Source: Acetomicrobium hydrogeniformans (GTDB taxonomy: Bacteria > Synergistota > Synergistia > Synergistales > JAFGMB01). Taken from it: a stretch of 64,000 nt of DNA. The stretch is from contig JAENYO010000003.1 in NCBI GenBank assembly GCA_016841745.1, positions 1 through 64,000 of the forward strand, read 5' to 3'. Under the pieces are notes generated by a model, which was given only the letters and a program-made list of their open reading frames with translations, did no database searches and was not told where the DNA came from. Shown here piece by piece: positions 7,306 through 54,969 of the stretch. Both the position numbers and the translations under genes were made by a program. Position 1 is the first letter of the stretch. The number at the start of each line of letters is the position of its first letter.

Positions 7306-8499
7306 TTGAATCTGGATAACATTATTTCCCATGTAGATGTTCATCAGAAAAAAGCCACAGTATTTCCGGGAACTCCTCTTGCGGATCGGATGAGACAGCC
7401 CTTCACAATAGAGTACGATGCAGATATCGATCTTCGGGAACTGGATCTCTCCATAGTGATAACACCTTTTCTACTCAATGTTATTCCTCTTCTCTGGTTT
7501 CTGGGCGGAACATATAAGGTGGATTCCATGGATGAGGATCTTTTCTCCAGCCTTGAACTTGTTAGGGATGGATTCCGAACCCTTTATCCGGATGTACCCT
7601 GGGAAGGCCAGCTTATCCCGGAAACTTTAACTTCTACTTCCAGGAGAAAAAATAATACAGACCTGTCTCAGGTTCTTTTCTTTTCAGGAGGGGTGGATTC
7701 TACCTATTCGGCTCTACAGGCAGATCCTGACAGGACTATACTTCTTACTATACGCGGTCACGACATTGCCTTGAATAATGACCAGGTGTGGGAAACAGTA
7801 TGTGCCCAGGTGGATTCTTTTGCTTCCCGGTTCGACTTCAGGACTGCCAAGGTCAGTGCAAATGTTTTTGGACTTTTAAGATGTGGGGATATCCATAAAG
7901 AATACCCGATTCTTAAACCATGGTATGGAACAGTACAGCATGGCATAGGTCTATCGAGTCTGGGTTTTCCCCTAGCAATTTACAATGGGTGGGACAGGGT
8001 GATCTTTTCTTCTTCAGAGGGTGTTAAAGCAAAGCATGTTCCGTGGGGGGCACACTATTTTCTGGAGCCTAATCTAAAGGTTAGCGGAATAGAGGTATTT
8101 TCAGAAGGTGCAGAACTCACCTGGCCAGACAAGGTTGCAGCCATGGTCGAATTCTTCAAACAGAATCCGGAACAGGAAAAGCCTTTACTGAGGATATGTC
8201 TTGATGATATGAAGGGGAGTGCTGTAAAAAACTGTACTTCCTGCGAAAAATGCCTCAGGGGTATCCTGTCGTTGATAGTAAGGTGTGAAGATCCTGCGGA
8301 TTGGGGTATTCCAGTTTCGAAAACATTGTTTGAGGTTCTAAAAAAAGATCTTCCCAAAATTTCTATTGAACCTGGGTGGATATATATATGGGATCGAATT
8401 CATGAATTGGCTTTACTGGTTTTACCAGAAAGCAATGGAGAATACAGGCAATTTCTCAACTGGTTTATTGACTGGTACGAAAACAAATACATGGTTTAA
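7306..8499 (+). CDS. PP-loop ATP-pyrophosphatase-like protein, copy 1
   Basis: 397 residues. A PP-loop nucleotide motif FSGGVDSTYSA (SGGVDS at 127-132) marks the adenine-nucleotide alpha-hydrolase superfamily, which activates carboxyl or carbonyl groups by adenylation (QueC, asparagine synthetase, GMP synthetase). A cysteine cluster CTSCEKC (Cys310, Cys313, Cys316) near the C-terminus resembles the QueC zinc site. The start is TTG 7306, eight bases after GGAGAG; the same TTG is conserved in the two tandem paralogues, and an ATG alternative is absent. First of three tandem copies, 112 bp before the next. The substrate is unknown; a tailoring role in a small natural-product or nucleobase-like pathway is a guess. 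Confidence 0.8.
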   Translation: MNLDNIISHVDVHQKKATVFPGTPLADRMRQPFTIEYDADIDLRELDLSIVITPFLLNVIPLLWFLGGTYKVDSMDEDLFSSLELVRDGFRTLYPDVPWEGQLIPETLTSTSRRKNNTDLSQVLFFSGGVDSTYSALQADPDRTILLTIRGHDIALNNDQVWETVCAQVDSFASRFDFRTAKVSANVFGLLRCGDIHKEYPILKPWYGTVQHGIGLSSLGFPLAIYNGWDRVIFSSSEGVKAKHVPWGAHYFLEPNLKVSGIEVFSEGAELTWPDKVAAMVEFFKQNPEQEKPLLRICLDDMKGSAVKNCTSCEKCLRGILSLIVRCEDPADWGIPVSKTLFEVLKKDLPKISIEPGWIYIWDRIHELALLVLPESNGEYRQFLNWFIDWYENKYMV

Positions 8500-8611
8500 G
8501 TGGAAAGATAGGATCTTGTTTTCTAATAGATAGTGTTATGCAAGGCTATTTATTATCAGTCAGCCAGGAAGATCAAAAATCAGAGATCTGGGATACAAGT
8601 AGGAGAATTTA

Positions 8612-9820
8612 TTGAGAATGAATAATATTATTTCCCATATTGATATAGGAATAAATAAAGCCACGGTTTTTCCGGGAGCTCCTCTTGCTGAACGGATGAG
8701 ACAGCCCTTCACCGTTGAGTATGATGCAGATATCGATCTGAGAGAACTGGACTTCTCAATAGTGATCACCCCATTTTTACTTAACGTAATTCCCCTTCTC
8801 TGGCTTCTTGGAGGAAGTTACAAAGTGGATTCCATGGATGGAGATCTTTTCTCCAGTCTTGAGCTCGTAAAGGAAGGGTTCAGGGCCATTTATCCTGATG
8901 TACCCTGGGAAGGCCAGCTTATCCCGGAAACTTTAACTTCTACTCCCAGGAGAAAAAATAACACAGACTTGTCCCAGGTCCTTTTCTTTTCCGGAGGTGT
9001 GGATTCTAGCTATTCTGCAATAAATGCAGATCCCGCCAGGACGGTTCTTCTGACCGTTTGGGGTCATGATATTGCCCTGAATAACGACAGTGCGTGGGAA
9101 ACAGTATGTTCTCGAGTGGGCAGCTTTGCCTCCTCGTTCAGTTTCAGAACCGCAAGGGTAAGGGCTAACGTGTTCCGTCTTTTAAGATGCGGAGATATAC
9201 ACAAAGAATACCCCATTTTAAAACCATGGTATGGAATGGTGCAGCATGGGCCGGGATTAGTGGGTCTGGCCTTCCCCCTTGCCGTCTACAATGGGTGGGA
9301 AAGGATCCTCTTTTCCTCTTCAGTGGGAGAGAAAGTGACCCATGTTCCATGGGGTTCCCATCCTTTTCTTGAACCGAGGCTCAAAGCAAATGACACGAAG
9401 GTGATCTCGGAAGGAACAGAGTTGATCTGGGCAGATAAAATCATGGCAATTGTTGATTTTTACAGGAATAACCCTGGCTTAACCAGGCCTTCCATGAGAA
9501 TATGTCTGGATGACATGAACGGCAATCCTGTTAAGAATTGCACCCTTTGTGAGAAGTGTCTCAGAGGGATAGTTTCGTTGATTATCAGGTATGAAGATCC
9601 CTCAGATTGGGGTTTTCCTGTTCCTGATCCGGTATTCAACAGTGTGAAGAACTGCCTTTTAACCATGACTATTCCCAGGTCCAATAAATATATCTGGGAC
9701 CGCATCCACCATCTGGCCTTACAGGCTTTGCCGGAAAGCCATGGAGAGTACAGGGAATTCCTCAACTGGTATATTGACTGGTATGAAAAGAGATATATTC
9801 TTCAGTTGGAGAAAATATGA
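8612..9820 (+). CDS. PP-loop ATP-pyrophosphatase-like protein, copy 2
   Basis: 402 residues, close paralogue of its neighbours throughout. It shares the N-terminal PGAPLAERMRQPFT block, PWEGQLIPETLTS, FSGGVDSSYSA and the CTLCEKC cluster. Sequence differences are spread over the gene and concentrate in the segment between the PP-loop and the cysteines, as expected if each copy has its own substrate. Start: TTG 8612 (aligned with the other copies) or ATG 8618; AGGAGA at 8601-8606 is better spaced for the ATG, so the first two residues are uncertain. The C-terminus is slightly longer (LQLEKI). Confidence 0.8.
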   Translation: MRMNNIISHIDIGINKATVFPGAPLAERMRQPFTVEYDADIDLRELDFSIVITPFLLNVIPLLWLLGGSYKVDSMDGDLFSSLELVKEGFRAIYPDVPWEGQLIPETLTSTPRRKNNTDLSQVLFFSGGVDSSYSAINADPARTVLLTVWGHDIALNNDSAWETVCSRVGSFASSFSFRTARVRANVFRLLRCGDIHKEYPILKPWYGMVQHGPGLVGLAFPLAVYNGWERILFSSSVGEKVTHVPWGSHPFLEPRLKANDTKVISEGTELIWADKIMAIVDFYRNNPGLTRPSMRICLDDMNGNPVKNCTLCEKCLRGIVSLIIRYEDPSDWGFPVPDPVFNSVKNCLLTMTIPRSNKYIWDRIHHLALQALPESHGEYREFLNWYIDWYEKRYILQLEKI

Positions 9821-9919
9821 CTTTATTGTGCTGAAAAATCCTGTAAATAAAATTATTCATAATTATGGGCCCTGAAAGAATGAAAATTCTGGATCATGGT
9901 TCCTGCAGGGAGGACTTAA

Positions 9920-11113
9920 TTGAAAATAGATAACATTATTTCCCATGTAGATGTTCATCAGAAAAAAGCCACAGTATTTCCGGGAACTCCTCTTGCGGAT
10001 CGGATGAGGCAGCCCTTTACCCTAGAGTACGATGCCGATATCGACCTTCGGGAACTGGATCTTTCAATAGTGATAACACCTTTTCTACTCAATGTTATTC
10101 CCCTTCTCTGGTTTTTGGGCGGAACATATAAGGTGGATTCCATGGATGAAGATATGTTCGCCAGCCTGGAACAGATAAAGGAAGGTTTCCGGACCCTGTA
10201 TCCGAATGTACCCTGGGAAGGCCGGCTTATTCCAGAAACTTTAACTTCTACTTCCAGGAGAAAAAATAATACAGACCTGTCTCAGGTGCTTTTCTTTTCC
10301 GGAGGAGTGGATTCGACCTATTCGGCTCTACATGCAGATCCTGACAGAACTATACTTCTTACTATACGCGGTCACGACATTGCCTTGAATAATGATCAGG
10401 CTTGGGAAACGGTATGTTCTCAGGTCGATAATTTTGCATCTTCTTTTGATTTTAAAACAGAGAGGGTAAGCGCAAATGTTTTTCGCCTGTTGCGGTGTGG
10501 TGATATACATAAGGAACACCCTGAACTGAAACCCTGGTATGGTACAGTGCAGCACGGTCTTGGCCTTTCCGGTCTGGCTTTTCCCCTTGCTGTTTATAAC
10601 GGCTGGGATAATGTTATTTTTTCTTCTTCTATAGCAAATAAAGTGGCATATATCCAATGGGGGGCTCATCCTTACCTGGAGCCCAGGTTAAAAGTTAGTG
10701 GTATCAGGGTAGTTGCGGAGGGAATTGATTTTTTTTGTGCGGATAAGGTTCAATCTATTGTAGATTATTGCAGGAGCAAACTCGGACAGGATAAGCCCTT
10801 TATGAGGGTATGTCTGGATAACATGAGTGGTAACGCTGAAAAGAACTGTGGTCTTTGTGAAAAATGTTTGAGAAGTATCGTTTCGCTGATAATCAAATCT
10901 GAAGATCCTTCAGATTGGGGTTTTCCTGTTCCGCTGCCATTATTTGAAGTTCTAAAGGAACGTCTTGAGGATATGTATATCCGACTCGGATGCATAAATC
11001 AATGGGATCACATCCATCATCTAGTTTCAGAGGCCTTACCGGAAAGCAGAGGAGAGCACAGAGAATTCCTGAATTGGTATATTGACTGGTATAGCAGAGA
11101 ATATCTATCATAG
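9920..11113 (+). CDS. PP-loop ATP-pyrophosphatase-like protein, copy 3
   Basis: 397 residues, TTG start at 9920 six bases after GGAGG (9909-9913). At the DNA level its first third is nearly identical to copy 1 (shared blocks run through codons 8-70 and 105-150), whereas its second half diverges, as if a recent duplication or gene conversion had kept the N-terminal ATP-binding half uniform. SGGVDS and CGLCEKC are intact, so nothing suggests inactivation. Last gene of the plus-strand triplet; the next gene is convergent. Confidence 0.8.
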   Translation: MKIDNIISHVDVHQKKATVFPGTPLADRMRQPFTLEYDADIDLRELDLSIVITPFLLNVIPLLWFLGGTYKVDSMDEDMFASLEQIKEGFRTLYPNVPWEGRLIPETLTSTSRRKNNTDLSQVLFFSGGVDSTYSALHADPDRTILLTIRGHDIALNNDQAWETVCSQVDNFASSFDFKTERVSANVFRLLRCGDIHKEHPELKPWYGTVQHGLGLSGLAFPLAVYNGWDNVIFSSSIANKVAYIQWGAHPYLEPRLKVSGIRVVAEGIDFFCADKVQSIVDYCRSKLGQDKPFMRVCLDNMSGNAEKNCGLCEKCLRSIVSLIIKSEDPSDWGFPVPLPLFEVLKERLEDMYIRLGCINQWDHIHHLVSEALPESRGEHREFLNWYIDWYSREYLS

Positions 11114-29804: not shown

Positions 29805-32162
29805 TTACTGTTTTGCCATTAACCTGCGATATTTGAGTTCCTCTGACTCCTTATGGCTTACATCGTCGTCCTCAAGATCGATACGTACCCAGTTGATCTT
29901 GCCCTTGAAGCGATTTTTCTCACCTTCGGGATAATCATCTGCTACAGGCAGGGCGAGATCATGGCCGATATCAAGGGTTTCGTCTGCTGAGAAAACAAAG
30001 GGTACGGTCTTCTCGATTCGGCCTTCTCCGAACAGTTCATCGTTCACGTAAAGCCGACCGGTTCCTCCGCCTCCTGGTTTGTCACCATCGAAGTTGAAAT
30101 GGTAACGTATGTTGACTTTTCCGGGAGGGAGCGGTTTCGCTGCCTCCACGTAGTAGTAATTGACGTCGAACCAGTTGTGAACGTATTTGACGATTCCCTC
30201 TTTAACGTAAAGGCTCCAGCCGGCGAAACGTCCGCCCTGGGCGATGATCACACCATCTGTCTTGTCCTTGGTGACTTCCACCTCTGCAGTCACAGTATGG
30301 GACCGGTTTTTAACGTTCAACACAGTGTTCTCCATAAGGGTGTCCATTCCGGGATAGAAGGTCATGGTCTTACGTCCGCCAGGAAGATCCGGCCGTCCTG
30401 CAACAGCAGCGTTGAAGCGCTCGTATCGCCTGTCGTCGAGTGGGAATACACCGTATTTGGCCGCTTCGATCATGAACAGGTACTGCAGTTCACGAAGTTT
30501 ATCGGGCATCTCCTTCGAAAGGTCATGGGCCTGGCTCCAGTCTTTGGTAGTGTCGTAGAGTTCCCAATCGTCTGCATCGAAGGATGGCCACTCACGTGTG
30601 AGCCATGGTGTACTGTGATGGGTGACTGCAGTCCAGCCATCACAGTAGATACCTCTATTTCCGAAGATCTCGAAATACTGGGTCCTGTGCCGATCCTCGG
30701 CGTTGGGTTTATCGAAGGTGTAAACCATGCTGACACCCTCGATGGGTTTCTGGGCACTTCCATTGACCATATAGGGTTGGGGCAGTCCTGCTGCCTCCAG
30801 GATGGTGGGTACGATGTCGATGACATGATGGAACTGCTGGCGGATCTCCCCTCTGGCTTTGATTCCCTTCGGCCAGCTGATGGCCGTGGCGTTACGGGTG
30901 CCGCCGAAGTGCGAGGCCACCTGCTTGGTATACTGGAATGGAGTATTCATGGCATGAGCCCAACCCACAGGATAGTGATTGAAAGCCCTCGGACCACCAA
31001 TTTCATCGAGCTTGGGCAGGACCTCCTCCAAAGTCTGGGGGATACCATTGAGGGCCATGAGCTCGTTTAAAGTGCCGTCCAGGCCGCCTTCGGCGCTGGC
31101 ACCATTGTCCCCGGCAATGTAGATGAACAGAGTATTATCAAATTTGCCCATTTCTTCGAGCGTCTCTATCACCCGCATTACCTGGGTATCGGTGTGTTCT
31201 GCGAAGCCAGCATAGGTTTCCATCAGCCGGGTAAAGACCTTCTTCTCAGTATCGTTCAGCTCATCCCAGGCCTTGACCCCTTCCGGGCGTGCAGTTAGAA
31301 GGGTGTCGGGAGGAACCAGTCCTTTGGCCTTCATGTTTGCCAGGGTCTCTTCCCTGATGGCGTCCCACCCCTTGTCGAATTTGCCCTTGTACTTGCTGAT
31401 CCACTCCGGGGATACATGGTGGGGGGCATGGGTGGCACCAAAGGACAGGTATAGGAAGAAGGGCTTGTCTGGAGTCATAACGTCCAGGCCCCGCATCCAT
31501 CCTATGGCTTTATCGGTTATGTCCTCCGAGAAGTGGTAGCCTTCATCGGCCGTGGCCGGGGGTTCTACCGGGCTTGTGCCCTTGAACAGGGTGGGGGACC
31601 ACTGGTTTGTCTCGCCGCCCACAAAGCCGTAGAATTTTTCAAAACCTTCGCCTGTGGGCCAACGGTCGAAGGGGCCCGACATGCTGACTTCCCAGGTAGG
31701 GGTCTGGTGTGCCTTCCCCACACAACCGGTGCTGTATCCATTGAGTCGAAGCATCTCGGCAATGGTGGCAACGGTGTTCGGTCGAATGCTGTCGTTTCCA
31801 GGTGCGCCGGTGGCAACTTCACATACTGAGCCAATTCCTGCGGAGTGGTGATTTCGCCCGGTCAACAGTGCTGCCCGGGTGGGGGAGCATAGTGCGGTGG
31901 TGTGAAAGCGGTTGTAGGTCAGGCCCTGGTTCGCTACCTTCTCCATGGCAGGCATGTTACAGGGACCGCCTGTGAGGCTCGGAGCACCGAAGCCCATATC
32001 GTCTATAAGGACAATTACCACGTTTGGCGCGTTCTTTGGTGGACGCAGCGGTTCGATGGGCGGAAATTCAGCATTTCGTGCGTCCAACGCCATCTTGCCT
32101 TTGGACGGGACATCAGGGATCGGTAGTATTTCCCGTCCTGTTACTTCCGGTTTCTGTGCCAT
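29805..32162 (-). CDS. Sulfatase 1 (arylsulfatase family, 785 residues)
   Basis: Formylglycine-dependent sulfatase. The substrate site CSPTR (Cys92) is followed by ALLTGRNHH; metal-binding Asp54-Asp55 (LIDDMG) and AGDNGASAEG (second metal site) are in place. A C-terminal beta-rich domain (about 600-760) resembles a concanavalin-like lid found in the 780-residue subgroup. There is no signal peptide, so it is probably cytosolic. Cys92 would be oxidised by the anaerobic maturase encoded at 51958. It is a paralogue of the enzyme at 54970 and could also act on phosphonate or phosphate esters. SD AGGAGA. Confidence 0.9.
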   Translation of the reverse strand: MAQKPEVTGREILPIPDVPSKGKMALDARNAEFPPIEPLRPPKNAPNVVIVLIDDMGFGAPSLTGGPCNMPAMEKVANQGLTYNRFHTTALCSPTRAALLTGRNHHSAGIGSVCEVATGAPGNDSIRPNTVATIAEMLRLNGYSTGCVGKAHQTPTWEVSMSGPFDRWPTGEGFEKFYGFVGGETNQWSPTLFKGTSPVEPPATADEGYHFSEDITDKAIGWMRGLDVMTPDKPFFLYLSFGATHAPHHVSPEWISKYKGKFDKGWDAIREETLANMKAKGLVPPDTLLTARPEGVKAWDELNDTEKKVFTRLMETYAGFAEHTDTQVMRVIETLEEMGKFDNTLFIYIAGDNGASAEGGLDGTLNELMALNGIPQTLEEVLPKLDEIGGPRAFNHYPVGWAHAMNTPFQYTKQVASHFGGTRNATAISWPKGIKARGEIRQQFHHVIDIVPTILEAAGLPQPYMVNGSAQKPIEGVSMVYTFDKPNAEDRHRTQYFEIFGNRGIYCDGWTAVTHHSTPWLTREWPSFDADDWELYDTTKDWSQAHDLSKEMPDKLRELQYLFMIEAAKYGVFPLDDRRYERFNAAVAGRPDLPGGRKTMTFYPGMDTLMENTVLNVKNRSHTVTAEVEVTKDKTDGVIIAQGGRFAGWSLYVKEGIVKYVHNWFDVNYYYVEAAKPLPPGKVNIRYHFNFDGDKPGGGGTGRLYVNDELFGEGRIEKTVPFVFSADETLDIGHDLALPVADDYPEGEKNRFKGKINWVRIDLEDDDVSHKESEELKYRRLMAKQ

Positions 32163-33629: not shown

Positions 33630-35159
33630 CTATTCCACCAGCTCGATCTCACCTGGACGCCAGGTTCTGTTGATCCATGGTTCAAGCGGCCCGTAGGCGC
33701 GCAGGATGATAAACCAGCTCTTGCCTGGAATCGTCTGTATCCAATTGTTTTCCTGACCTTCAGGTGCTTTCGGGGCGAAGTAAATATTGAAAGAACTGTC
33801 ATCGTTTTTCTTCAATTCTGTTCCTAAACTGTTGATTCCAGCGTATCTTTGATCGGTCTGGAGCATGCAGCGGGTCTGGGTGTCATAGATGATCACCGAC
33901 CAGTTGTCCTTCACGGGAACATTGGGCGGCAGGTGCAGCTTGTATGTTTTGGCGCCGTCCAGAGTCTCGTGTCTGGAGTCCAGACCTGCAATAGCATATT
34001 GTGATCCTGCACCTGGTTTGGTGAGTGCCATGGCGGGTGTTACAGCGATGGCATTGTAATGCATCCACAGACGTGAATCGAACCGCCGGGCACCGTCCTT
34101 AAGAAAATAGGTATCATTATCAGCAAAGGCCATGACCCATTCGCTGCCGGTGTCCGGGTAGTAATAATGACCCGGATCGCGTGGAACGATCGTGTTGGCC
34201 CGGGCGTATGCATTGCCTATTGCAACCGCCTCGGTAAGGATCCGCCTCATGCGAGGATCGGGGTTGAACTGTTTGTCCTTTACAATCCCGATAGATGCGA
34301 TCTGGCCTCTTGTTTCAGGATCGAGAAAATCGAGAGGTTCCTCCTGGATCAAAGTGTTCAGGTCTTCGTAGAAGCTGAAGTCGTTGGGCGGAACTGTGTT
34401 GTACTCATCCCTGCCGGTCATGTTTATGAACACCATCTTTGGGGGATTATCCTGTTTTGCCAGCGGGTACACTTTCAGATTGTTCTTGATATTGTCGGCG
34501 GCGGCCTTTACGCTGTCTCTGACGTATCCGCGCATCATGTTCCATACGCCGTAAGTCTTTGACTTCACCACGTAATACCCGTCAGGAACGTCGCCTGTGT
34601 AACCCGGGGGAAGAACCAGGTATTTCCCGCCCTTGCCCTTGTCGGGGCCGGCCGCGCCCATGTCAGCAATGTAACGGAAGTACATGTCGTCCAGGATGCC
34701 CAGCACATCAGGAGGCAGTTTGATAACGGTGGGGCCGTCCTTTTTGAGATCGAGAAAACCCCAGGTGTAAAGGGAGGTGTTATTGCCGGTAAGCACCAGC
34801 GACTTGGAATCCATCAATTCTTCCCAGATGAGGATCTGGTTGTATTCCATTGCACCCATATCGCGTTGTCCCTTACGTAGATTGAACATGGAAACTGCCG
34901 GTATCATGTTGATGAACACCTCAACCGCCCTTGCGCGGTCTACATAATCATAAACTGTTTCGATAGTTTCCCTGGTGGGTACCCCATCAAAGAAATGGAA
35001 TGCTCCGACAGGTGTTTCCACCTTGTCATTAGTGGTAATCTGATGAGGTGTTGGCATGGTCATCTTCATTGTGGGCAACTCCGCATAGATGGTGGATGTC
35101 ATGCAGATGAGGATCAGCCCGGCCAATATAAGCGAGAATATTTTTCCCTTTTTCATCAT
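33630..35159 (-). CDS. DUF1254/DUF1214 secreted protein, type A copy 1
   Basis: 509 residues. Signal peptide (about 7-26), leader PTMKMTMPTPHQIT, DUF1254 (about 50-215, with YDYVDRARAVEVFINMIP and GPDKGKGGKYLVLPPGY) and C-terminal DUF1214 (about 390-505, WSVIIYDTQTRCMLQTDQ and WINRTWRPGEIELVE). The fold is a beta-sandwich protein family of unknown activity, widespread and often clustered. I cannot assign a substrate. Start ATG 35159 after AAAGGAG. First gene of the array as read left to right, last as transcribed. Confidence 0.88.
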   Translation of the reverse strand: MMKKGKIFSLILAGLILICMTSTIYAELPTMKMTMPTPHQITTNDKVETPVGAFHFFDGVPTRETIETVYDYVDRARAVEVFINMIPAVSMFNLRKGQRDMGAMEYNQILIWEELMDSKSLVLTGNNTSLYTWGFLDLKKDGPTVIKLPPDVLGILDDMYFRYIADMGAAGPDKGKGGKYLVLPPGYTGDVPDGYYVVKSKTYGVWNMMRGYVRDSVKAAADNIKNNLKVYPLAKQDNPPKMVFINMTGRDEYNTVPPNDFSFYEDLNTLIQEEPLDFLDPETRGQIASIGIVKDKQFNPDPRMRRILTEAVAIGNAYARANTIVPRDPGHYYYPDTGSEWVMAFADNDTYFLKDGARRFDSRLWMHYNAIAVTPAMALTKPGAGSQYAIAGLDSRHETLDGAKTYKLHLPPNVPVKDNWSVIIYDTQTRCMLQTDQRYAGINSLGTELKKNDDSSFNIYFAPKAPEGQENNWIQTIPGKSWFIILRAYGPLEPWINRTWRPGEIELVE

Positions 35160-35237
35160 TATCTCTCCTTTGTTCTCCAGATTTTTGCAAGCTGTGGCTT
35201 GCTTATCGAAGATCTGTTGCCTGCTTTTTTTGATTTT

Positions 35238-36782
35238 TTATTTCAGCAGTTCAAAGTCGTTCATCACCCAGGTCTTCTCGATGTAGCCCTCCAGTGGCCC
35301 GTAGAAACGGAAAACCACGAAGAAGCCCTTGTCGGGATCGGTCTTGATGAAGTTTTTCTCCTTGTCCTTGGGTGCTTTTGGGCCGAAATAGACATCCACC
35401 GAGCCGTCCGGGTTGGCATCCACCCCGCGTGTGCTGCTGATCGTGATGTTGCCGCCTGAATCCAGCAGGCTGCGGCTCATGGGATCGTAAGCCGTGACCG
35501 CCCAGAAACGTTTGACCGGCGGGTTGGGCGGAACGCGCAGCCGGTAGGTCTTGTCGCCCAGCAGGTAGGCGCCGTCCTTGTCCCGAAAACAGGTCAGGTA
35601 GGCAGTACCCACACCCGGAGTGGTGGAGAGCAGATTCGGTGAAACACAAATGGCCTGGTAGTGCCAGAGGGTCCGGGCATCAATATCACTGTGGCCGTTG
35701 ATCATGAACGCAGTATTGCGAATAAACATCTTTTCCCAGTGCCTGTTGGACCAGTAGTTGATCTCCGGGTCCCTTGAGGCGTAAACGATGGCACGAGACA
35801 TGGCTACCCCCTGTTTTGCAGCCTGGTCAAAGATGCCTTTCATCCGCACATCCGGATTGAAGGGCTTGCCCTTCTCGATGCCCAGTGTAGCCAAACGACC
35901 AAGCAGTTCCTTGTCAAAGAGCGATGTGGGCTCATACTGGATGATCTCGTTGAGCATTTCAAAGACAGAACCGTCTTCCAGCGGTAGTGTGTTGGCGCCG
36001 ATGCCGGATGTATTGGTGGCTGTGTGTTCCCGAGGCCTAGTGAACAAGGGATAAACCTTAAGACGATCCTTGAACCACTGAACGGCCTGCTCGCCGGTAC
36101 CGACCTCACCGAAGCCCCGCATCATGGCCCAGATCCGGTATCCGGGGGATTCCAATACAAAATATCCGTCCGGCACCTTGCCCTTGTACCCCGGGGGCAG
36201 GAACAGGTATTTGCCGCCCTTGCCCTTGTCGGGTCCGGTGGGTCCGAAGTCGGTGAGGTACTTGAAGATGGCGTCGTTGGCATTGCCGTACATGCCGGGC
36301 GGGATCTCCACCACCGTGGCTCCGTCCACCTTCAGGTCGAGGGTGGCGAAGGCGTAGACCGTGACGTCGTTGCCGGTCAGGTAGTTCTCGCTAGGCTTCA
36401 TGAAGTCTGCCATCACTCCAATGTCTGAAGGGGTCTTGAACCCGAAGTCCCGAACCTGCGACTTGACGATGCCGTAGAGCGAAAGGGCTGGAAAGAAGTC
36501 CATGTAGGTCTGGGTGGCGCGCTGCAGATCCATTTCGTCGTATATCTTCTGCACAGAGGCTTTATCCGGAAACGCGCCGCCTTTGAATTCCAGCGTACCG
36601 AAATTTGTTTGAATCTTGTCTGGTGCCGGTTTGAAGTCCTTTGCAGTCTGCTTCTGACCAGCGGTCTTAAACAGGTTTCTCGTTTCTGCTGAATTGTCGG
36701 CCTTCTGCGCCCACACGGGGGCCATCAGGCAAACGGCAATAAACAAGATTAGGATTGCTGTGGATAATTGTTTCATTTTCAT
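35238..36782 (-). CDS. DUF1254/DUF1214 secreted protein, type B copy 1
   Basis: 514 residues. Signal peptide (about 5-25), a linker containing FKPAPDKIQTNFGTLEF, DUF1254 with YDEMDLQRATQTYMDFFPAL and GPDKGKGGKYLFLPPGYKG, and DUF1214 ending YIEKTWVMNDFELLK. Together with the copy at 42274 it forms a subgroup (shared DLQRATQ and FKPAP) distinct from the YDY/YDF-type copies. The final motif (VMNDFELLK) departs from the TWRPGEIELV consensus. 78 bp separate it from the next gene downstream. Confidence 0.88.
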   Translation of the reverse strand: MKMKQLSTAILILFIAVCLMAPVWAQKADNSAETRNLFKTAGQKQTAKDFKPAPDKIQTNFGTLEFKGGAFPDKASVQKIYDEMDLQRATQTYMDFFPALSLYGIVKSQVRDFGFKTPSDIGVMADFMKPSENYLTGNDVTVYAFATLDLKVDGATVVEIPPGMYGNANDAIFKYLTDFGPTGPDKGKGGKYLFLPPGYKGKVPDGYFVLESPGYRIWAMMRGFGEVGTGEQAVQWFKDRLKVYPLFTRPREHTATNTSGIGANTLPLEDGSVFEMLNEIIQYEPTSLFDKELLGRLATLGIEKGKPFNPDVRMKGIFDQAAKQGVAMSRAIVYASRDPEINYWSNRHWEKMFIRNTAFMINGHSDIDARTLWHYQAICVSPNLLSTTPGVGTAYLTCFRDKDGAYLLGDKTYRLRVPPNPPVKRFWAVTAYDPMSRSLLDSGGNITISSTRGVDANPDGSVDVYFGPKAPKDKEKNFIKTDPDKGFFVVFRFYGPLEGYIEKTWVMNDFELLK

Positions 36783-36847
36783 TTTCTCCTTCTTCCGTTT
36801 GGTGGGATGAGCGCTAACCCCACCAACTTTTATTTGGTTCTGTTAAG

Positions 36848-38386
36848 CTATTTAACCAACTCGATCTCACCCGGCCGCCAGGTCTGGTCGATCCACGGCT
36901 GTTCGGGGCCATAGATGCGCAGGGCGATGAACCAGCTCTTGCCGGGGATGGTCTGGAGCCAGTTGCCTTCCTTGCCTTTGGGTGCTTTGGGCGCAAAGTA
37001 GATGTCCATGGAGCCATCCGCATTCTTCTTGATCCCTTTGTCCTGGCTGCCAAGCGTCGGGAACTGCTGGTCGGTCTGCAGTTGCGAGCGTGTCTGGGTG
37101 TCGTACATGGTGATTGCCCAGAAGTCTTTCGCAGGCGGGTTCGGCGGAATCCGGAGGCGATACGTCTTGGATCCATCCAGAACCTTGCCCTCGGAATCGA
37201 GCATTCCCATGGAATAGTCCGATCCTTTGCCGGCAACGGTCATGGCCATGGCGGGAGAAACGCAGATATAGCCGAAGTGGAAAAGGACGCGCGGATCGAG
37301 GCGATAGGCACCGTTGCGTGTGAAGGTGGTGTCCTTGTCGGCGTAGGCGGTAACCCAGGCATTGCTGTTCTTGAAGGTCAAATTGCCGGGGTCACGCGGG
37401 AAGTAGCTGATGGAGCGGGCGGCTCCGTTGCCGATGGCGGCAGCATCGGTCAGGATTTTCTTCATGCGGGTGTCAGGATTGAAGTCCTTACCCTTTTCGA
37501 TGCCGATGGCAGCCATCATTCCCCTTGCCTCCGGACCAAGATAGTCATCCGGCTCGGTCTGGATCAGAGCATGCAGTTTCTCAAACGCGCTGTAGTCATT
37601 GGGGACGATCACGTGCATGTCCTTGCCGGACACGTTGATGAACTCCGTCGCTGGCGGGTTTTGCACGGTCGACAGCGGGTAAACCTTCAGTGTGTTACGA
37701 ATGTTTTTTGACGCGGCCGGGATAGCCTTCTCGATCGGCAGGGTCTTATCGAGATAGCCGCGCATGAATACCCATACACCGCTGGTTTTGGAAGGGACTT
37801 CGAAGTAGCCTTTGGGAATTTCGTCTTTGTATCCGGGAGGCAAGACGAGGTACTTTCCGCCTTTGCCCTTGTCAGGGCCAGCGACGCCGAGGTCAACCAT
37901 GTACTTGAAAGCCATGTCATCAAGAATTCCAAGCATCCCCGGTGGCAGATCTATGACAGTTGGACCGTCTTTGAGGAGGTCAAGGAACCCGAGAGCGTAC
38001 ATCGTTGATGTATTGCCGGTCAGCAGGATGGTCTTGGAGTCCATCAGGTTGTCAAAGATGCATATCTTATTGCAGGTATCTGCGCCCATGGCGGCCTGTC
38101 CTTCGCGCAGGGCGTTCATGGACAGGGCGGGGATCGAGTTGAGAAAGACGTTCACGGCCCGCGACGTGTCTAGATAGTCGTAGATGGTCTCGGTGCTTTT
38201 CTCGCTGGGTACTCCATCGAAGTAGTGTAGCTCCCCGATTGAGGTCTCAACCTTGTCAGGTGCGGTATAGGTTTTCGGAATGTCGGTGGTCATCTTCATT
38301 TTGGGTGGAGTCGCCCATGCCCCTGCTGTAAGAGTTACAATAATTGAACAGGTTATGATGACCAGTTTAATTTTTTTCATATTCAT
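36848..38386 (-). CDS. DUF1254/DUF1214 secreted protein, type A copy 2
   Basis: 512 residues with a signal peptide (about 7-26), leader PPKMKMTTDIPKTYTAP, DUF1254 (YDYLDTSRAVNVFLNSIPAL, GPDKGKGGKYLVLPPGYKD) and DUF1214 (WAITMYDTQTRSQLQTDQQ, WIDQTWRPGEIELVK). Close to the copy at 33630. The leader is nearly the same as that fused to the HAD hydrolase at 39572. An AGGAGG-type site lies before the ATG at 38386. Confidence 0.88.
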   Translation of the reverse strand: MNMKKIKLVIITCSIIVTLTAGAWATPPKMKMTTDIPKTYTAPDKVETSIGELHYFDGVPSEKSTETIYDYLDTSRAVNVFLNSIPALSMNALREGQAAMGADTCNKICIFDNLMDSKTILLTGNTSTMYALGFLDLLKDGPTVIDLPPGMLGILDDMAFKYMVDLGVAGPDKGKGGKYLVLPPGYKDEIPKGYFEVPSKTSGVWVFMRGYLDKTLPIEKAIPAASKNIRNTLKVYPLSTVQNPPATEFINVSGKDMHVIVPNDYSAFEKLHALIQTEPDDYLGPEARGMMAAIGIEKGKDFNPDTRMKKILTDAAAIGNGAARSISYFPRDPGNLTFKNSNAWVTAYADKDTTFTRNGAYRLDPRVLFHFGYICVSPAMAMTVAGKGSDYSMGMLDSEGKVLDGSKTYRLRIPPNPPAKDFWAITMYDTQTRSQLQTDQQFPTLGSQDKGIKKNADGSMDIYFAPKAPKGKEGNWLQTIPGKSWFIALRIYGPEQPWIDQTWRPGEIELVK

Positions 38387-38468
38387 TATTTTCTTACCTC
38401 CTTAAAATCAGTAATAACAAACATTTTCAGGGTTCTTTGCTCCTCTTTGACCCGGATTGCAGTTATGA

Positions 38469-39437
38469 TCAATCAAGCCAGCTGTTTTTGCGGAAGAACA
38501 TGAGCATACCCCACCCGATAAGCAACATCAGTGATAGCGCCATAGGATAGCTGTAGGGGTATTTCAACTCAGGCATGACCGCAAAATTCATGCCCCATAT
38601 ACCGGCAAGAAGAGTGGCAGGGTTGAAGATAGCTCCAAGAATGGTAAGAGTGTTCAGTTTTTGGTTTGTTTTCTCCTGTCCGAGCATGTCAAAACTGGAG
38701 CGCAGGGCGTTTATGCGGCCATCCATCCAGCCCAGGGTTCCCTCCAATGACCTCAGATCTGCAAGTGTGCACTTGAGATAATCCCTTGATTCCGATGGTT
38801 TGAAAAAGGGCTTCTCGGTGCAAGCCAAAGTGTCTATATTGGGCAACTGATCGCTTACCATGATTCCCAGGGTCAGAAATTCTGTTCTGAGGTCAAGGAT
38901 GTCATCTCTCCTGATACTCTCAGGTTCACTGTCCATTCTTCCTTCCATGGTGATAACAGAATTTCTGAGGATGTTGTTCCGCTTGAGAAGATCCTGGGAA
39001 AGGTTGATGAGTATTGTGGATATCAGGCCTTCCACATTATCTTCGGGCAGCCATGCCTCGCTGATAAGCATTTTTGCAAGATTTTCAAGGCTTGGTATCC
39101 TTTTCTGACGAAAGGTAACAAGCAGTTTTTCCCTGATCAGAAAGGCAAGGTGATCCATTTCCTGGGGGGTCTGTTCCTCAGGAAGTACCGGTATAACAAG
39201 GAACAGATCTTCCCTGAGAGGGTAGAAACCTGAGTGGTTCCGGGCTTCCAGGCAAAGCCTTCTGGACAGTGCTGTCAATCCTAACGTATCCAACCATTCA
39301 TGGATACTTTCTTTCAGGGAAGCCTGAATATCTATCCAGACCCTTTGATTATCATTTCTGTAGACTTCAATTGCCCTTTCGGGATCAATGGCCTCGATCT
39401 GCATAGATCCTGTTATCAGGTAACTGCTAACTTGCAT
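38469..39437 (-). CDS. CorA-family divalent cation transporter
   Basis: 322 residues. A cytosolic alpha/beta domain and long helices are followed by two C-terminal membrane helices (about 265-282 and 296-315); the signature GMN (282-284, WGMNFAV) ends the first. CorA pentamers carry Mg2+ (or Zn2+/Co2+ in ZntB relatives). The loop between helices reads MPELKYPYSYP, with one acidic residue (Glu290) as in CorA. GGGAGG precedes ATG 39437. It sits inside the DUF1254 array and has no obvious link with it. Confidence 0.88.
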   Translation of the reverse strand: MQVSSYLITGSMQIEAIDPERAIEVYRNDNQRVWIDIQASLKESIHEWLDTLGLTALSRRLCLEARNHSGFYPLREDLFLVIPVLPEEQTPQEMDHLAFLIREKLLVTFRQKRIPSLENLAKMLISEAWLPEDNVEGLISTILINLSQDLLKRNNILRNSVITMEGRMDSEPESIRRDDILDLRTEFLTLGIMVSDQLPNIDTLACTEKPFFKPSESRDYLKCTLADLRSLEGTLGWMDGRINALRSSFDMLGQEKTNQKLNTLTILGAIFNPATLLAGIWGMNFAVMPELKYPYSYPMALSLMLLIGWGMLMFFRKNSWLD

Positions 39438-39470
39438 TTTAGATACCTCCCGTTTTTTTCGGTATCTTAT

Positions 39471-39533
39471 CTATTCCACCAGTTCAAAATCACCGGGTTT
39501 CCAGGTCTGGTCGATCCAGGGTTGTTCGCTGTT
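39471..39533 (-). pseudogene. C-terminal stub of a DUF1254/DUF1214 gene
   Basis: After the HAD stop (39572) the minus strand still encodes EQPWIDQTWKPGDFELVE followed by a TAG (39473-39471), the last 18 residues of a DUF1214 domain, without a start. A stretch of about 30 bases here matches the 3' end of the intact gene at 40694. So a DUF1254 gene once occupied this spot and its body is gone. Confidence 0.75.
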
Positions 39534-39571
39534 TGGAGTCGCCCTGAAATCTACTGCGCCTTGACGATGGT

Positions 39572-40618
39572 TCATTCTTCTTCTGTAGAAAAGACCACAG
39601 CCCAGTCCTTTTTCATGCTTACAACGATCCAGCCATTCTCTTTTGCGGCCTTCAACGACCCGCCATCCTCTTCTGCATAGGAATACTCACGAACGTCGTC
39701 ATCGTGATTGACGAGCAACTGCAGTGATGGCCCCTTCCTGCCTTGCGAGTACGCGCACATCGCGATGTCCCCATGGGAACGGACATTTCCCATTGCAATC
39801 AGCGGACGGCGACCAATATGGAGATCAATATTGACCGCTTTGACATTCGTATCGTTGAAGGAAGAAAGTTCTCCGGTTCGCGTCATGGACCACCCTTCTT
39901 CGCCCTCTGCGAACACCTTCTTTCCTGAACTGCCAATGACTTGCTCTGGTGGAATTCCATATAGGGGCTCGGAAATGGCGCGCATAAAATCAATTCCTCC
40001 TCCCGAACAAATGAAGGTCTTGAATCCGTGTGAGCGCAGGTACTCGAGCAGTTCGATCATGGGTTGATAGGTCAATTCTCCAAACCCTCTTCCAAACTTC
40101 GGATGTTTCGCGGCTGCCATGAACTCCCGAACCTCCGCACTGAATTCCTCGTCAGTCATTCCCGCATGAGTGGCACTGAACAGCTCCAGGCTTGCAGGCA
40201 TGCCTTCTGTTTTCAAATATGCTTTGTCGTTCTCGAGTGCAGCCTTGAAGGGCTGGCGCTCCTTGAGGGAAGGGTCATTCTCTACCATTTTCGTCAGACG
40301 GTATAGTATGAATGCGCCTTGGACGACTGGTTGTTCACACCAGAGCGTGCCGTCATTGTCAAAGGTGGCAATCCGTTCCGCAGACGCAACGTATTTTGGG
40401 CTACCTTTGGTTGTGACCGCGGTAACGAAACCCATGATTTTCTGTTTTGCTGAATGATCGTTCCACGACGGAAGTGGGCCTGCCTGGGCCGGAGCCGTAT
40501 AGGCGGAAGGAATCTCCGACGTCATTTTCATTGTTGGCGTTTGTGCTGAACTGATACTTGTCAAACTAGCCAGCATCATTAAGCCCAAGGCCAATGTTAA
40601 TAATTTGTTTCTTTTCAC
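39572..40618 (-). CDS. Secreted HAD-family hydrolase with a DUF1254-type leader
   Basis: 348 residues from GTG 40618 (SD GGAGGAGAAA). Residues 1-25 are a signal peptide, and 28-43 (PTMKMTSEIPSAYTAP) copy the start of the mature DUF1254 proteins (compare 36848). From about 50 on it is a haloacid-dehalogenase-type phosphatase: DNDGT with Asp87 and Asp89, the Ser/Thr motif in FICSGGGID, and a Lys and GDxx motif region at IAMGNVRSHGDIAM. The downstream stub (39471-39533) is a DUF1214 end. So a HAD domain appears to have replaced the middle of a DUF1254 gene while keeping its export leader. Confidence 0.82.
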   Translation of the reverse strand: MKRNKLLTLALGLMMLASLTSISSAQTPTMKMTSEIPSAYTAPAQAGPLPSWNDHSAKQKIMGFVTAVTTKGSPKYVASAERIATFDNDGTLWCEQPVVQGAFILYRLTKMVENDPSLKERQPFKAALENDKAYLKTEGMPASLELFSATHAGMTDEEFSAEVREFMAAAKHPKFGRGFGELTYQPMIELLEYLRSHGFKTFICSGGGIDFMRAISEPLYGIPPEQVIGSSGKKVFAEGEEGWSMTRTGELSSFNDTNVKAVNIDLHIGRRPLIAMGNVRSHGDIAMCAYSQGRKGPSLQLLVNHDDDVREYSYAEEDGGSLKAAKENGWIVVSMKKDWAVVFSTEEE

Positions 40619-40693
40619 TTTCTCCTCCTTAATTTATCCCTCATCGACTGCAACCTAGCAGACGGCGCGGGATGTATTGTTCTCTAACTTTCT

Positions 40694-42202
40694 CTACTTC
40701 ACCAGTTCAAAATCACCGGGTTTCCAGGTCTTATCAAACCAGGGTTGGAGCGGGCTGTATAACCTCAACAATACGTGGAATCCCTTGTTTGGCATGGTCT
40801 GCACCCAATTACCCTCTTTTCCCTTTGGTGGTTTAGACGCGAAATAAACCGTATATGAACCATCTGCATTGGCTTTAAGGTCTTTGGCCATACTGTCTAG
40901 ACCGCCGGTTTTTTGATCGGTTTCCAGAATAGAGCGGGTTTGAACGTCATAAACCATAAATGACCAAAAGGCTTTCGCCGGCACTGGAGCAGGAAGCGTC
41001 ACCGAATAGGTGTTGTTGCCACTCAGCATTTTACCGGTAGCATCGGTTGCTGCGATCTCATAAACAGAGCCGGAACCAGGTGTCGGGGAGACCATAAAGG
41101 GAGTGATGCCCGTTGCGAAGTAGTGAAATCCAATACGACGATCGAGCATCCGGGCGCCATTTTTATCCAGGAAAGCAGAACTCCCATCAGCCAGGGGTGA
41201 GAACCATTGGCGATCAGGGTAAAAGTATTCTGTTCTATCGCGGGGCTTAAACATGACTGCGCGCGAAGCTGCGTTTCCGATAGATGCGGCTTCATTCAAA
41301 ATTTTCTTAATTCTCGCGTCAGGAGTGAAGGGCTTGCCTTTACTGATTCCCAGCTCGGCAGCCAAACCCAGCATTGCAGGATCACCTGAATTAGCCGGTT
41401 CATACTGAATCACTTCATTGAGTTCATCGTAAATAGAGGCATCGCCTGCATGAATCGTGTTATATTTTTTGCCCGAAATATTGATATAGTCATTGGGTTC
41501 AGGATTTTTTGCTTGCGCCAGGGGATACAGTTTAAAGCCGGCTTTAAAGGCCGTAAGCGTATCTTTAAGTGACTCGCCCGGTTTTCCTACAGCCCTGAGG
41601 AACAACCAATGGCGGTACGTATTGGTGCGAAGGACAAAATATCCTTCAGGTATTTCCCCTTTGTAATCCTTTCCTACCAACAGGTATTTTCCGCCTTTGC
41701 CTTTATCAGCGCCGCCAAGACCGACATCTGCAACATATAAGAAAAAGGCATTATCAACGATCCCGATAACAGGGGTGCCCACCTCGAATACGACCGGACC
41801 ATCTTTAACATTCAGTTCAGCATGAATGTAAGGTGTTGTTGTGTTTGGCGTTAGCCATAACGATCTTGCGTCAAGCAACTCTTCAGTGATCGCAAGCGTC
41901 TTATTCGGTTTAACGCCGATGTCTCTATGCCCTTTTAGCAAGCCGTGCATGGAAGCCGTTGGAATACCGCTGGTAAAGAGCTGCACCGCCCTGGATGTAT
42001 CCAGAAAGTCGTAGCTCTTCTTAAGTGTTGCGTCTGTTGGGAATCCATCGACAAACTTCAGATCTCCCAGATACTTTGTCTTTACGGTATCTGGGGTGAT
42101 CAGTGACGCGGGCACGTCGGCCTTGTAGTTGGGATCAGCGGCAAAAGCCGATGTCGCGACAGTCAATGCCAGGCAGGTAGTTATAAACTTTTTCATTTCC
42201 AT
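40694..42202 (-). CDS. DUF1254/DUF1214 secreted protein, type A copy 3
   Basis: 502 residues. Signal peptide (about 5-21, cut near AFA), DUF1254 (YDFLDTSRAVQLFTSGIP, GADKGKGGKYLLVGKDYKG) and DUF1214 (WSFMVYDVQTRSILETDQK, WFDKTWKPGDFELVK). It is a variant of the A type: PPGY is replaced by KDYKG in the conserved loop. Its 3' end is the apparent source of, or twin to, the stub at 39471. SD GGGAG. Confidence 0.88.
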   Translation of the reverse strand: MEMKKFITTCLALTVATSAFAADPNYKADVPASLITPDTVKTKYLGDLKFVDGFPTDATLKKSYDFLDTSRAVQLFTSGIPTASMHGLLKGHRDIGVKPNKTLAITEELLDARSLWLTPNTTTPYIHAELNVKDGPVVFEVGTPVIGIVDNAFFLYVADVGLGGADKGKGGKYLLVGKDYKGEIPEGYFVLRTNTYRHWLFLRAVGKPGESLKDTLTAFKAGFKLYPLAQAKNPEPNDYINISGKKYNTIHAGDASIYDELNEVIQYEPANSGDPAMLGLAAELGISKGKPFTPDARIKKILNEAASIGNAASRAVMFKPRDRTEYFYPDRQWFSPLADGSSAFLDKNGARMLDRRIGFHYFATGITPFMVSPTPGSGSVYEIAATDATGKMLSGNNTYSVTLPAPVPAKAFWSFMVYDVQTRSILETDQKTGGLDSMAKDLKANADGSYTVYFASKPPKGKEGNWVQTMPNKGFHVLLRLYSPLQPWFDKTWKPGDFELVK

Positions 42203-42273
42203 CGATAAGTCTCCCCTTTCTTTTTGGCGAAGCGAGTTTTAACCCGCCTCGCCGCTTATTTTTCTTGAGCGAA

Positions 42274-43824
42274 TTATTTCACCAACTCCACATCATTCGG
42301 GATCCACGTCTTTTCGTTAAACGCCTTGAGCGGACCGTAGTAGCGCATGTAGACAAAGAACCCCTGATCGGGAAGAGCCTTTACCCAATTCGCTTCCGAA
42401 ACCCTGGCTGGTTTCTTGACGGAGAAATAAATATCGATAGAACCATCTTCATTAGTAGTCGGTGCCGGTTTCTGCTGGCTGCTGATGCTTGGATAGGGCT
42501 GGCTCTGGATTTCGCAGCGAGTCCATGGATCGTAGACCGTCACCGCCCAGAACAGCTTGACCGGAACATTGGGCAGCATGTGCAGCTTATAGGTCTTATT
42601 GCCGTCAAGGTATTTGCCATCCTTATCCTTGTAAGTGGTCTGGTATCGGGAACCCAATCCATCCGGCATCTGGGCCGCCATGGCGGGCGTGATACCGTCG
42701 GCCGTGAAGTGGAACGTTGTCCGTGCCTCCAGATTAAAGTAGCCATCCGGATCGAAGCTTGAGCTGTCGCCGATGTAGGGACTTTCCCACATGCGATTCG
42801 GATAGACTTTCGCGATATCCTGGCGGCTGTCGAATGCGATCACGCGGGACATTGCCACGCCTTCTTTTGCGGCCTGGTCCAGGATCTTCTTCATGCGGTC
42901 GTCGGGGTTGAACGGCTTGCCCTGTACAATGCCGATGGAGGCGAGGCGTCCCAGTTTTTCTTTGCCGAAGGCTTCGGCCGGCTCGTAGTTGATGATCTCA
43001 TGCATCCACTCGAAAGCGGTGGCACTCTCGGGAACCAGGGTATCGATCGGGACTCCGGAAACGTTGGTGAAGGTACTCTCTCTGGATGCATCCTTCAGCG
43101 GATAGACACGGCAATTCTTGCGAAAAAATTCCATCGCTTTTTCGCCCATTCCGACCACCTCCGCATTAGCGCGGACAAAGGAGAAAAGACGATAGGTCGG
43201 CGATTGAAACACAAAGTAGCCGTCCGGCACGTCACCCTTGTAACCAGGAGGGAGGATCAGGTACTTACCACCCTTGCCTTTGTCCTGGCCGGTGGGACCA
43301 ATATCGAAGGCAAACAAAAAGTTGGCGTCATCCACCGGTCCCATCAATCCGGGAGGTGCTTGAAAGACCGTGGGACCATCGGCCTTCAGGTCAAAGACTA
43401 TCATCGCATAGATACTCTCCGTATTGCCGGTCAGGAACAATGCACTGGAATCCAGTCTGTCGGCTGTCACCGCAACATGCGAGCAATCCTTCGAGCCGTA
43501 ATCCCGCACTGTACCGATCATCATTCCGCGCATGGACAGGGTGGGATACATATCGAGGAACAACTGGGTTGCGCGCTGCAGGTCCAATTCATCGTATACC
43601 TTCTGAACGGTTTCTTCTGTCGGGTAGCCGTTGGGGAATTTCAGCGTGCCGAACCGGGTCTTTATTTCCTCAGGTGCCGGCTTGAACCCCCCGGGGGTGT
43701 ATTTTGCTTCCGAGGCACCGAGTTCGAATATACTTTTTTCTCCGTCCTGAGCCAATCCGGTACAGGGAACACTTGCCATCATCAGGACAAGCAGTGCCAG
43801 AATGACTAAAGTTTTCATTTTCAT
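42274..43824 (-). CDS. DUF1254/DUF1214 secreted protein, type B copy 2
   Basis: 516 residues. Signal peptide (about 5-25), acidic linker GEKSIFELGASEAKYTPGGF, FKPAPEEIKTRFGTLKF, DUF1254 (YDELDLQRATQLFLDMYP, GQDKGKGGKYLILPPGYKG) and DUF1214 (WAVTVYDPWTRCEIQSQPY, FNEKTWIPNDVELVK). It pairs with the copy at 35238 in its B-type features, including the variant last motif (IPNDVELVK). Together with the stub at 43909 it forms a second A-B-A set. Confidence 0.88.
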   Translation of the reverse strand: MKMKTLVILALLVLMMASVPCTGLAQDGEKSIFELGASEAKYTPGGFKPAPEEIKTRFGTLKFPNGYPTEETVQKVYDELDLQRATQLFLDMYPTLSMRGMMIGTVRDYGSKDCSHVAVTADRLDSSALFLTGNTESIYAMIVFDLKADGPTVFQAPPGLMGPVDDANFLFAFDIGPTGQDKGKGGKYLILPPGYKGDVPDGYFVFQSPTYRLFSFVRANAEVVGMGEKAMEFFRKNCRVYPLKDASRESTFTNVSGVPIDTLVPESATAFEWMHEIINYEPAEAFGKEKLGRLASIGIVQGKPFNPDDRMKKILDQAAKEGVAMSRVIAFDSRQDIAKVYPNRMWESPYIGDSSSFDPDGYFNLEARTTFHFTADGITPAMAAQMPDGLGSRYQTTYKDKDGKYLDGNKTYKLHMLPNVPVKLFWAVTVYDPWTRCEIQSQPYPSISSQQKPAPTTNEDGSIDIYFSVKKPARVSEANWVKALPDQGFFVYMRYYGPLKAFNEKTWIPNDVELVK

Positions 43825-51560: not shown

Positions 51561-51971
51561 ATGTATATTTTCTCAAGTAAGTTTCTGGATGACCTGGCAG
51601 CTCGGATAACAGGCCCCATGAGTTTCAGGTTTTTCGTCCAGCCTATGGTGGCAATAATGCTGGGAATTCGTGATGGGAAGCTGGATTCAAAGGCAGGAAC
51701 GCCTCCCTTTCTCTATAACGTTATCTTTAAAAAAGAAAACTATAGAAGCCAGTTAAGAAATGCCCTTCATGCCCTTTTGAAACCTGTAATTGTAGGAATC
51801 GTCCTTGATGCCCTAGCTCAATACCTTATTTTCAAGCATATCCGCCCCCTCCCGGCACTATTGGTGGGAACCTTCATTATGGGAGTTCCCTATTCGCTTT
51901 CCAGGGGAATATCCAACAGGATCTTTTCAAAGATCAGGACAAAAAAGGAGACTTTTCATGATAAACCGTGA
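51561..51971 (+). CDS. Small membrane-associated protein, unknown function
   Basis: 136 residues. The N-terminal half is soluble, with basic stretches (FFVQPMVAIMLGIRDGKLDS), and the C-terminal half has two hydrophobic segments (about 68-88 and 93-110) ending in a basic tail. I do not recognise a family. It overlaps the start of the maturase gene by 14 bases, so the two are translated together. Confidence 0.6.
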   Translation: MYIFSSKFLDDLAARITGPMSFRFFVQPMVAIMLGIRDGKLDSKAGTPPFLYNVIFKKENYRSQLRNALHALLKPVIVGIVLDALAQYLIFKHIRPLPALLVGTFIMGVPYSLSRGISNRIFSKIRTKKETFHDKP

Positions 51972-53187: not shown

Positions 53188-53335
53188 GCTATATTCCCAT
53201 CCTGAGCGGAAGGGAAAGATAGATGGTACAACTAGATAAAATGGAATAGTTCAAGCCGTAATAACATCCTTCTTACTGATGGTATCTATATTTTGCTCTG
53301 GTTTGACGATTTTTCAGAAAGGGAGGTGTAAAGAA

Positions 53336-54826: not shown

Positions 54827-54831
54827 TAATT

Positions 54832-54868
54832 TTGGGGGTATTAATAAAATGCCCCCAATCATTTTTTC
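54832..54868 (+). terminator. Rho-independent terminator after sulfatase 2
   Basis: TTGGGGG (54832-54838) pairs with CCCCCAA (54852-54858), followed by a T-tract (54861-54866). The next sulfatase, at 54970, must then have its own promoter or depend on read-through. Confidence 0.8.
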
Positions 54869-54969
54869 TTGTTGAGAGATACATATTTGACAACAATATC
54901 ATTTCCCTTTTCCTGTTTATAGAATTTTAATTCTCTCCTTGAAGAAAAAGTGGAAAGGAGATAATGGAA

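Follow-up and report, generated by a model that had tools for sequence, protein, structure and literature searches.

A tandem row of three genes near the start of a contig of Acetomicrobium hydrogeniformans very probably encodes PP-loop ATP pyrophosphatases of the QueC superfamily. The genes lie in the first 64,000 nucleotides of contig JAENYO010000003.1, a stretch here called the window, which is the first part of contig C14 in a genome of 3.04 Mb. Judged by sequence and by a structure model, the family to which they belong looks like a separate, undescribed subfamily with a QatC-like overall architecture. The QueC superfamily itself is known; what is new is this mobile branch of it, which is mostly associated with glycan genes. 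We propose that its members may be ATP-dependent carboxylate-activating, amide-forming enzymes of surface-glycan tailoring, and for the glycan role our confidence falls just short of even. The three genes are the following:

7306-8499, + strand: copy 1, predicted QueC-superfamily PP-loop enzyme, 397 residues, TTG start (open reading frame, alignment, motif scan)
8612-9820, + strand: copy 2, 402 residues, TTG start with an AGGAG ribosome-binding site, the most diverged of the three (same evidence)
9920-11113, + strand: copy 3, 397 residues, TTG start with a GGGAGG ribosome-binding site, the copy used for the structure model (same evidence)

Pairwise identity among the copies is 70-74%; the intergenic gaps measure 99-112 nt, and the sequence repeats at a spacing of 1306/1308 nt, well above chance. 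SGGVDS and a C-x11-CxxCEKC cluster are present in all three. In copy 1, an N-terminal extension of ~116 residues precedes SGGVDS (residues 127-132), the motif scan places the cysteines at C298-x11-C310-x2-C313-x2-C316, and a helical extension forms the C-terminus. A preliminary description of this DNA had noted three tandem paralogues of about 400 residues with SGGVDS and CxxCxKC, to which the fourth, upstream cysteine can now be added. In total the genome holds five intact copies at three loci, namely the tandem three, one of 399 residues on contig C8 (54% identical) and one of 408 residues on contig C2 (44% identical). No close homologue was found in the other 184 genomes of the same phylum that were searched, and the GC content is slightly lower at the triplet (0.43) than in its flanks (~0.48).

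Twenty-four members of the family were sampled for the motif scan. All 24 have an SGGxDS-type PP-loop and, towards the C-terminal end of the core, a C-x(n)-CxxCxxC cluster (n ~6-11), which is of zinc type by motif. Most carry a W-G-[SA]-H-P-x-x-[DE] segment followed by C-x(6-11)-CxxCxKC, and its order along the chain suggests that this segment occupies the place of YPDC in QueC. A profile of 21 relatives matches the solved QueC 2pg3 with an E-value of 9e-4; for the profile of all 24 members the values are 0.0042 for 2pg3 and 0.012 for QatC 9vlk. A structure model of copy 3 (AlphaFold2, AF2), built from 13 sequences taken solely from the window, its own genome and viral contigs, has a mean pLDDT (predicted local distance difference test) of 88.2 and a pTM (predicted template modelling score) of 0.88; a first model from five near sequences, with a pLDDT of 39, was discarded. 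A Foldseek search of the PDB with the copy 3 model returned no match at E <= 0.001, and the fold assignment rests on re-alignment with VIA-align together with the sequence profile. The re-alignment ranks QatC 9y02 (chain B; Z 13.5, root-mean-square deviation (rmsd) 5.0 Å over 304 residues, model 3..393) with QueC 2pg3 (Z 13.0, rmsd 3.8, 192 residues), QueC 3bl5 (Z 12.2, rmsd 3.6, 185 residues) and Cap9 9nto (Z 10.8, rmsd 3.2, 166 residues), below which come the nitrile synthetase ArtA (Z 9.7, rmsd 3.5, 159 residues), LarE (Z 9.7) and TtuA. In Z, QatC and QueC are level, and it is the QatC alignment that covers both extensions. The preliminary description had called the proteins PP-loop ATPases with a zinc-type cysteine cluster. 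The profiles, the model and the cut-offs given below agree with it: a zinc site is probable, activation of a carboxylate is likely, and the proteins fit no characterised family. Of the comparisons it had named, QueC holds for the core and asparagine synthetase does not (PF00733 has no match in the window members and reaches E 0.043 in one viral member), and ArtA ranks below QatC, QueC and Cap9.

No Pfam or NCBIfam cut-off was reached by the window members, whose weak touches were to QatC (10.6-12.5 bits, with the NF041925 cut-off at 280 bits) and to DUF6395 (12.6-13 bits, with the gathering score at 25 bits). Nor does any member of the family pass a QueC, QatC or Pfam cut-off: the window members have no match to PF06508 or TIGR00364, and the best PF06508 value in the family, E 0.0023, is below the gathering score. 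The QueC and QatC signatures compared here come from a 2026 survey of the PF06508 family (PMC13329287), outside which the triplet family falls because it is too distant for PF06508 detection. Each of the QueC signatures YxQxHxxE, VPxRN and YPDC is absent from all 24 members, as are the WbpG-type CxxC(x)6CxC and two parts of the QatC signature, DxxxxRx7WxR and C-x19-CGxCxxRR; the remaining QatC part, P-x4-TK, occurs in 1/24, a chance-like frequency. A housekeeping QueC identity was rejected, given the five copies here, the lack of close ones in the 184 other phylum genomes and the missing signatures. In the library searched, no paper on the triplet family or DUF6395 was found.

QatC, from the qatABCD anti-phage defence system, shares with the triplet family its whole plan of ~400 residues with N-terminal extension, QueC core and C-terminal helices, as the whole-model alignment over model 3..393 indicates. 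It differs in zinc spacing (C-x19 as against C-x(6-11)), in having a signature that the family lacks, and in its defence rather than glycan context; qatA, qatB and qatD were not seen beside the triplet, qatB, for which there is no model, being judged by reading. QueC, the preQ0 synthase of PF06508, has the SGGxDS PP-loop, the CxxCxxC zinc-type motif and the core fold in common with the family, whereas the latter is twice its size, does not adjoin queD or queE and is without its catalytic signatures. Cap9, the deazaguanylase of type IV CBASS (cyclic oligonucleotide-based anti-phage signalling), has the same core fold, but it is ~185 residues long and retains the QueC substrate motifs (PMC13329287) that are missing here. 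DUF6395 (PF19932), itself uncharacterised, aligns over the N-terminal region and SGGVDST (hhalign probability 91%, E 1.2e-6), and a DUF6395 protein is encoded on the same Priestia glycan plasmid as a family member. WbpG-type N-sugar amidotransferases, which are also grouped in PF06508 (cluster 5; PMC13329287), resemble the family as PP-loop enzymes found in O-antigen clusters; unlike them, it has no CxxC(x)6CxC and no amidotransferase partner genes in the neighbourhoods read.

The glycan association comes from where the relatives live. Those found on plasmids by tblastn are all annotated as hypothetical. A polysaccharide pyruvyl transferase gene adjoins the relative in Priestia (PF04230 confirmed), Azospirillum, Gemmobacter and Gloeothece and lies two genes away in Pseudobutyrivibrio; the Nostoc relative adjoins a flippase and has an O-antigen ligase nearby, and the clusters that hold the haloarchaeal relatives contain genes for a flippase, a polysaccharide deacetylase, Gfo/Idh and an epimerase. 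Distant homologues in another genus of the phylum, g18, are found near LicD, TPP-enzyme (thiamine pyrophosphate) and NAD-epimerase genes, and one of these loci has two neighbouring family matches. Control stretches taken elsewhere on five of these plasmids (Azospirillum, Gloeothece, Halomontanus, Nostoc and Gemmobacter) contained no polysaccharide-assembly genes; the Halomontanus stretch contains carbohydrate-degrading genes. The biosynthetic genes that the preliminary description proposed to look for around homologues are mostly those of surface-polysaccharide clusters; genes for non-ribosomal peptide synthetases (NRPS) or polyketide synthases (PKS) are lacking at most homologue loci, with NRPS genes near a homologue in one of about nine lineages (Gloeothece). 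Scans of genome collections with back-translated peptides returned no relatives, a result that is uninformative since tblastn on plasmids did find them. In Priestia megaterium S1, the 2633-nt circle pS3 (L012) holds the tail of tandem copy 1 and all of copy 2, and a shortened tandem copy 1 stands near the start of the pS2 record (L042); the arrangement is either a recombination-excised circle or an assembly split.

Family members are also carried on viral contigs, nine of which were found in scans of IMG/VR. On the phage-derived ones the family gene occurs singly, next to genes for a baseplate, a tail fibre or an endolysin, and in most cases on the opposite strand. The next gene on contig L086 is a Polysacc_synt flippase, and on contigs L084 and L085 a Wzy_C O-antigen ligase gene lies just downstream. 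A cargo place beside tail or lysis genes is usual for lysogenic-conversion genes and also for exclusion genes. The phage-borne copies are known from IMG/VR contigs alone, and a tblastn search of 50,697 phage records found no match to the window protein or to any of three viral members.

In established PP-loop chemistry, a carboxylate (or an amide) is adenylated by ATP, and the adenylate then reacts with ammonia or an amine. In the family described here, ATP would adenylate a carboxylate on a sugar, a nucleotide-sugar or a glycan-attached group with release of pyrophosphate, ammonia or an amine would capture the acyl-adenylate, and the resulting amide would alter the surface glycan. A sugar acid or glycan-attached acid is the candidate substrate because the neighbours of the homologues are glycan genes. 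Two anti-phage systems have recently turned out to use the QueC scaffold, which in them has been shown or proposed to modify proteins. We speculate, more tentatively than for the glycan role as such, that the present family is a third repurposing of the QueC/QatC scaffold, one that uses ATP to put an amide or a nucleobase-like conjugate onto surface glycans, as a way of converting the surface, and that is spread on bacterial plasmids and prophages and on archaeal plasmids. If true, a glycan-linked third branch would bring QueC-scaffold chemistry to the cell surface, and the plasmid-borne members, such as the Priestia tandem pair, make the substrate question testable. Several points weigh against this proposal. 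Its main weakness is that no glycan cluster adjoins any of this genome's five copies: the C8 paralogue has DUF364 and other metabolic genes as neighbours, and the C2 paralogue a Sir2-like gene. QatC, the structure that comes closest over the whole length, acts in defence. The relatives are mostly sampled from plasmids, and several of their loci, among the haloarchaea and in Priestia, are not mutually independent.

The three copies are not equally alike along their length. Residues 1-230 are 80-89% identical between them and residues 231 to the end 53-59%, which bears out the preliminary description of a nearly identical ATP-binding half and a divergent remainder. From this it had drawn a single activation chemistry acting on three substrates, a conclusion that loses its support because in copies 1 and 3 the front-half identity marks a tract of gene conversion. 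Among same-residue codons of these two copies, 133/157 are identical before codon 173 and 66/137 after it, a contrast that 0/1,000 shuffles reached in a permutation test (p ~0.001). Recent gene conversion is most simply the cause, because a constrained ATP-binding half alone would not keep synonymous sites alike. The synonymous-site breakpoint and the sliding proportion of synonymous differences (pS) delimit the tract as follows:

7306-7824, + strand: front of copy 1 to ~codon 173, gene-conversion tract in common with copy 3
9920-10438, + strand: front of copy 3, partner of the copy 1 tract

Copies 1 and 3 would in this way have exchanged their front halves, their rear halves, with the putative substrate pocket and zinc region, having diverged. 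Copy 2, whose synonymous differences from copies 1 and 3 are near saturation in the rear half, is older. Between the copies the non-synonymous rate (dN) is far below the synonymous rate (dS) throughout, and the copies are therefore under purifying selection. Inspection by eye shows no comparable breakpoint in the Priestia tandem pair.

The triplet is flanked by an arsenic-type operon on one side and by radical SAM (S-adenosylmethionine) and RND (resistance-nodulation-division) efflux genes on the other; by name, the flanking genes are LMWPc/ArsC-like, thioesterase, radical SAM and RND. The divergent neighbour is the thioesterase gene:

5940-6908, - strand: thioesterase, 322 residues (PF00975, E 1e-28)

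The carrier serine (GTDS, ~6930-6940) lies upstream of the first usable start of this gene, the ATG at 6908. Further upstream, the same frame encodes what looks like a carrier-domain end (DDFFDLVGTDSAAV), and this short carrier frame has no ATG, GTG or TTG and is closed by a stop at 7119-7121. Because the first start comes after the carrier serine, the gene looks like the truncated C-terminal remnant of a carrier-thioesterase protein, though it may have an unusual start codon. The carrier-thioesterase neighbour of the preliminary description is thus right as to the thioesterase and not as to an intact carrier. The gene is probably not part of the PP-loop system; a place for it as a component was rejected as the best reading, given its truncation and its lack of recurrence. 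Just one other relative is present in the genome, the 839-residue adenylation-carrier-thioesterase (A-T-TE) protein on C8 (29% identity over 143 residues), encoded by a stand-alone gene (L010, 14754-17273) ~4 kb from the C8 PP-loop paralogue.

These genes bear on a role in peptide or polyketide tailoring, to which the preliminary description pointed through the NRPS/PKS-type neighbour; in such a role the PP-loop enzymes would activate small acids for biosynthesis on a carrier. The remnant beside the triplet, the C8 A-T-TE gene, the NRPS genes near the Gloeothece homologue and the presence of ArtA among the structural matches all speak for it. We nevertheless think it improbable: the window thioesterase is without a usable start before its carrier serine, most homologue loci have no NRPS or PKS genes and the C2 copy has none, and homologues are found mostly in surface-polysaccharide clusters. 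The NRPS/PKS link is weakened, with the C8 A-T-TE gene still pointing to it. Sulfur transfer or another small-molecule reaction, in which the cysteine cluster would serve thiolation instead of binding structural zinc, is about as doubtful. The weaker structural matches include LarE and TtuA, and the motif is cysteine-rich, but LarE scores below QueC and QatC, and C-x(6-11)-CxxCxxC resembles the QueC zinc site (C-x8-CxxCxxC) and not the three-cysteine [4Fe-4S] motif of LarE (PMC13329287).

Somewhat less remote, though still unlikely, is a protein modifier of the QatC/Cap9 kind that joins an acid, nucleobase-like or other, to a partner protein at its N-terminus for anti-phage defence or prophage exclusion. 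The near whole-length match to QatC, extensions included (Z 13.5, 304 residues), would fit such an enzyme, as would the cargo place beside tail and lysis genes and the PTPS/QueD-like gene of this genome, with which a deazapurine pathway may therefore begin. Such PTPS/QueD-like genes are found in 19/21 genomes (this one and 20 relatives), none of which has a QueC over the cut-off, and without QueC they possibly serve queuosine salvage or a folate role; the QueE model also matches in 14/14 controls. Against a protein modifier stand the unreached QatC cut-off (the best defence-model E for QatC is 0.034), the absence of the QatC signature and of the QueC/Cap9 substrate motif (YPDC/YxDC) from members, the lack of a canonical QueC over the cut-off in the genome, and neighbours that are glycan genes, with no recurrent partner gene seen. 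Finally, the triplet might be a relic expansion, through recent transfer or simple amplification, without a function specific to this locus. The isolation of the copies within the phylum, their lower GC content, unrelated neighbours and gene conversion are in keeping with this; it too has little probability, as five open reading frames are intact with conserved motifs and dN is far below dS, a sign of purifying selection.

Other features of the window were noted in passing. On the arsenic side, a candidate selenoprotein (5578-5868, + strand) adjoins the ArsC-like LMWPc gene downstream of an ArsP permease. It is a BFD-like [2Fe-2S] protein (PF04324, E 2.5e-5, just below cut-off) with an in-frame TGA at 5752-5754, codon 59 (NPSGTUCAGD). 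The strong hairpin directly 3' of this TGA (-23.5 kcal/mol, z -5.1) resembles a bacterial selenocysteine insertion sequence (SECIS), and the genome has a tRNA-Sec gene (77.9 bits). At 33630-43824 (- strand) there is a row of paralogous exported proteins of ~500 residues, one identified by Pfam as DUF1254 + DUF1214 and the others by reading. Sulfatase genes lie at 29805-32162 (- strand) and 51958-57336 (+ strand; 54964-57336 confirmed by PF00884), with a radical SAM/SPASM gene of anaerobic sulfatase-maturase type close by.

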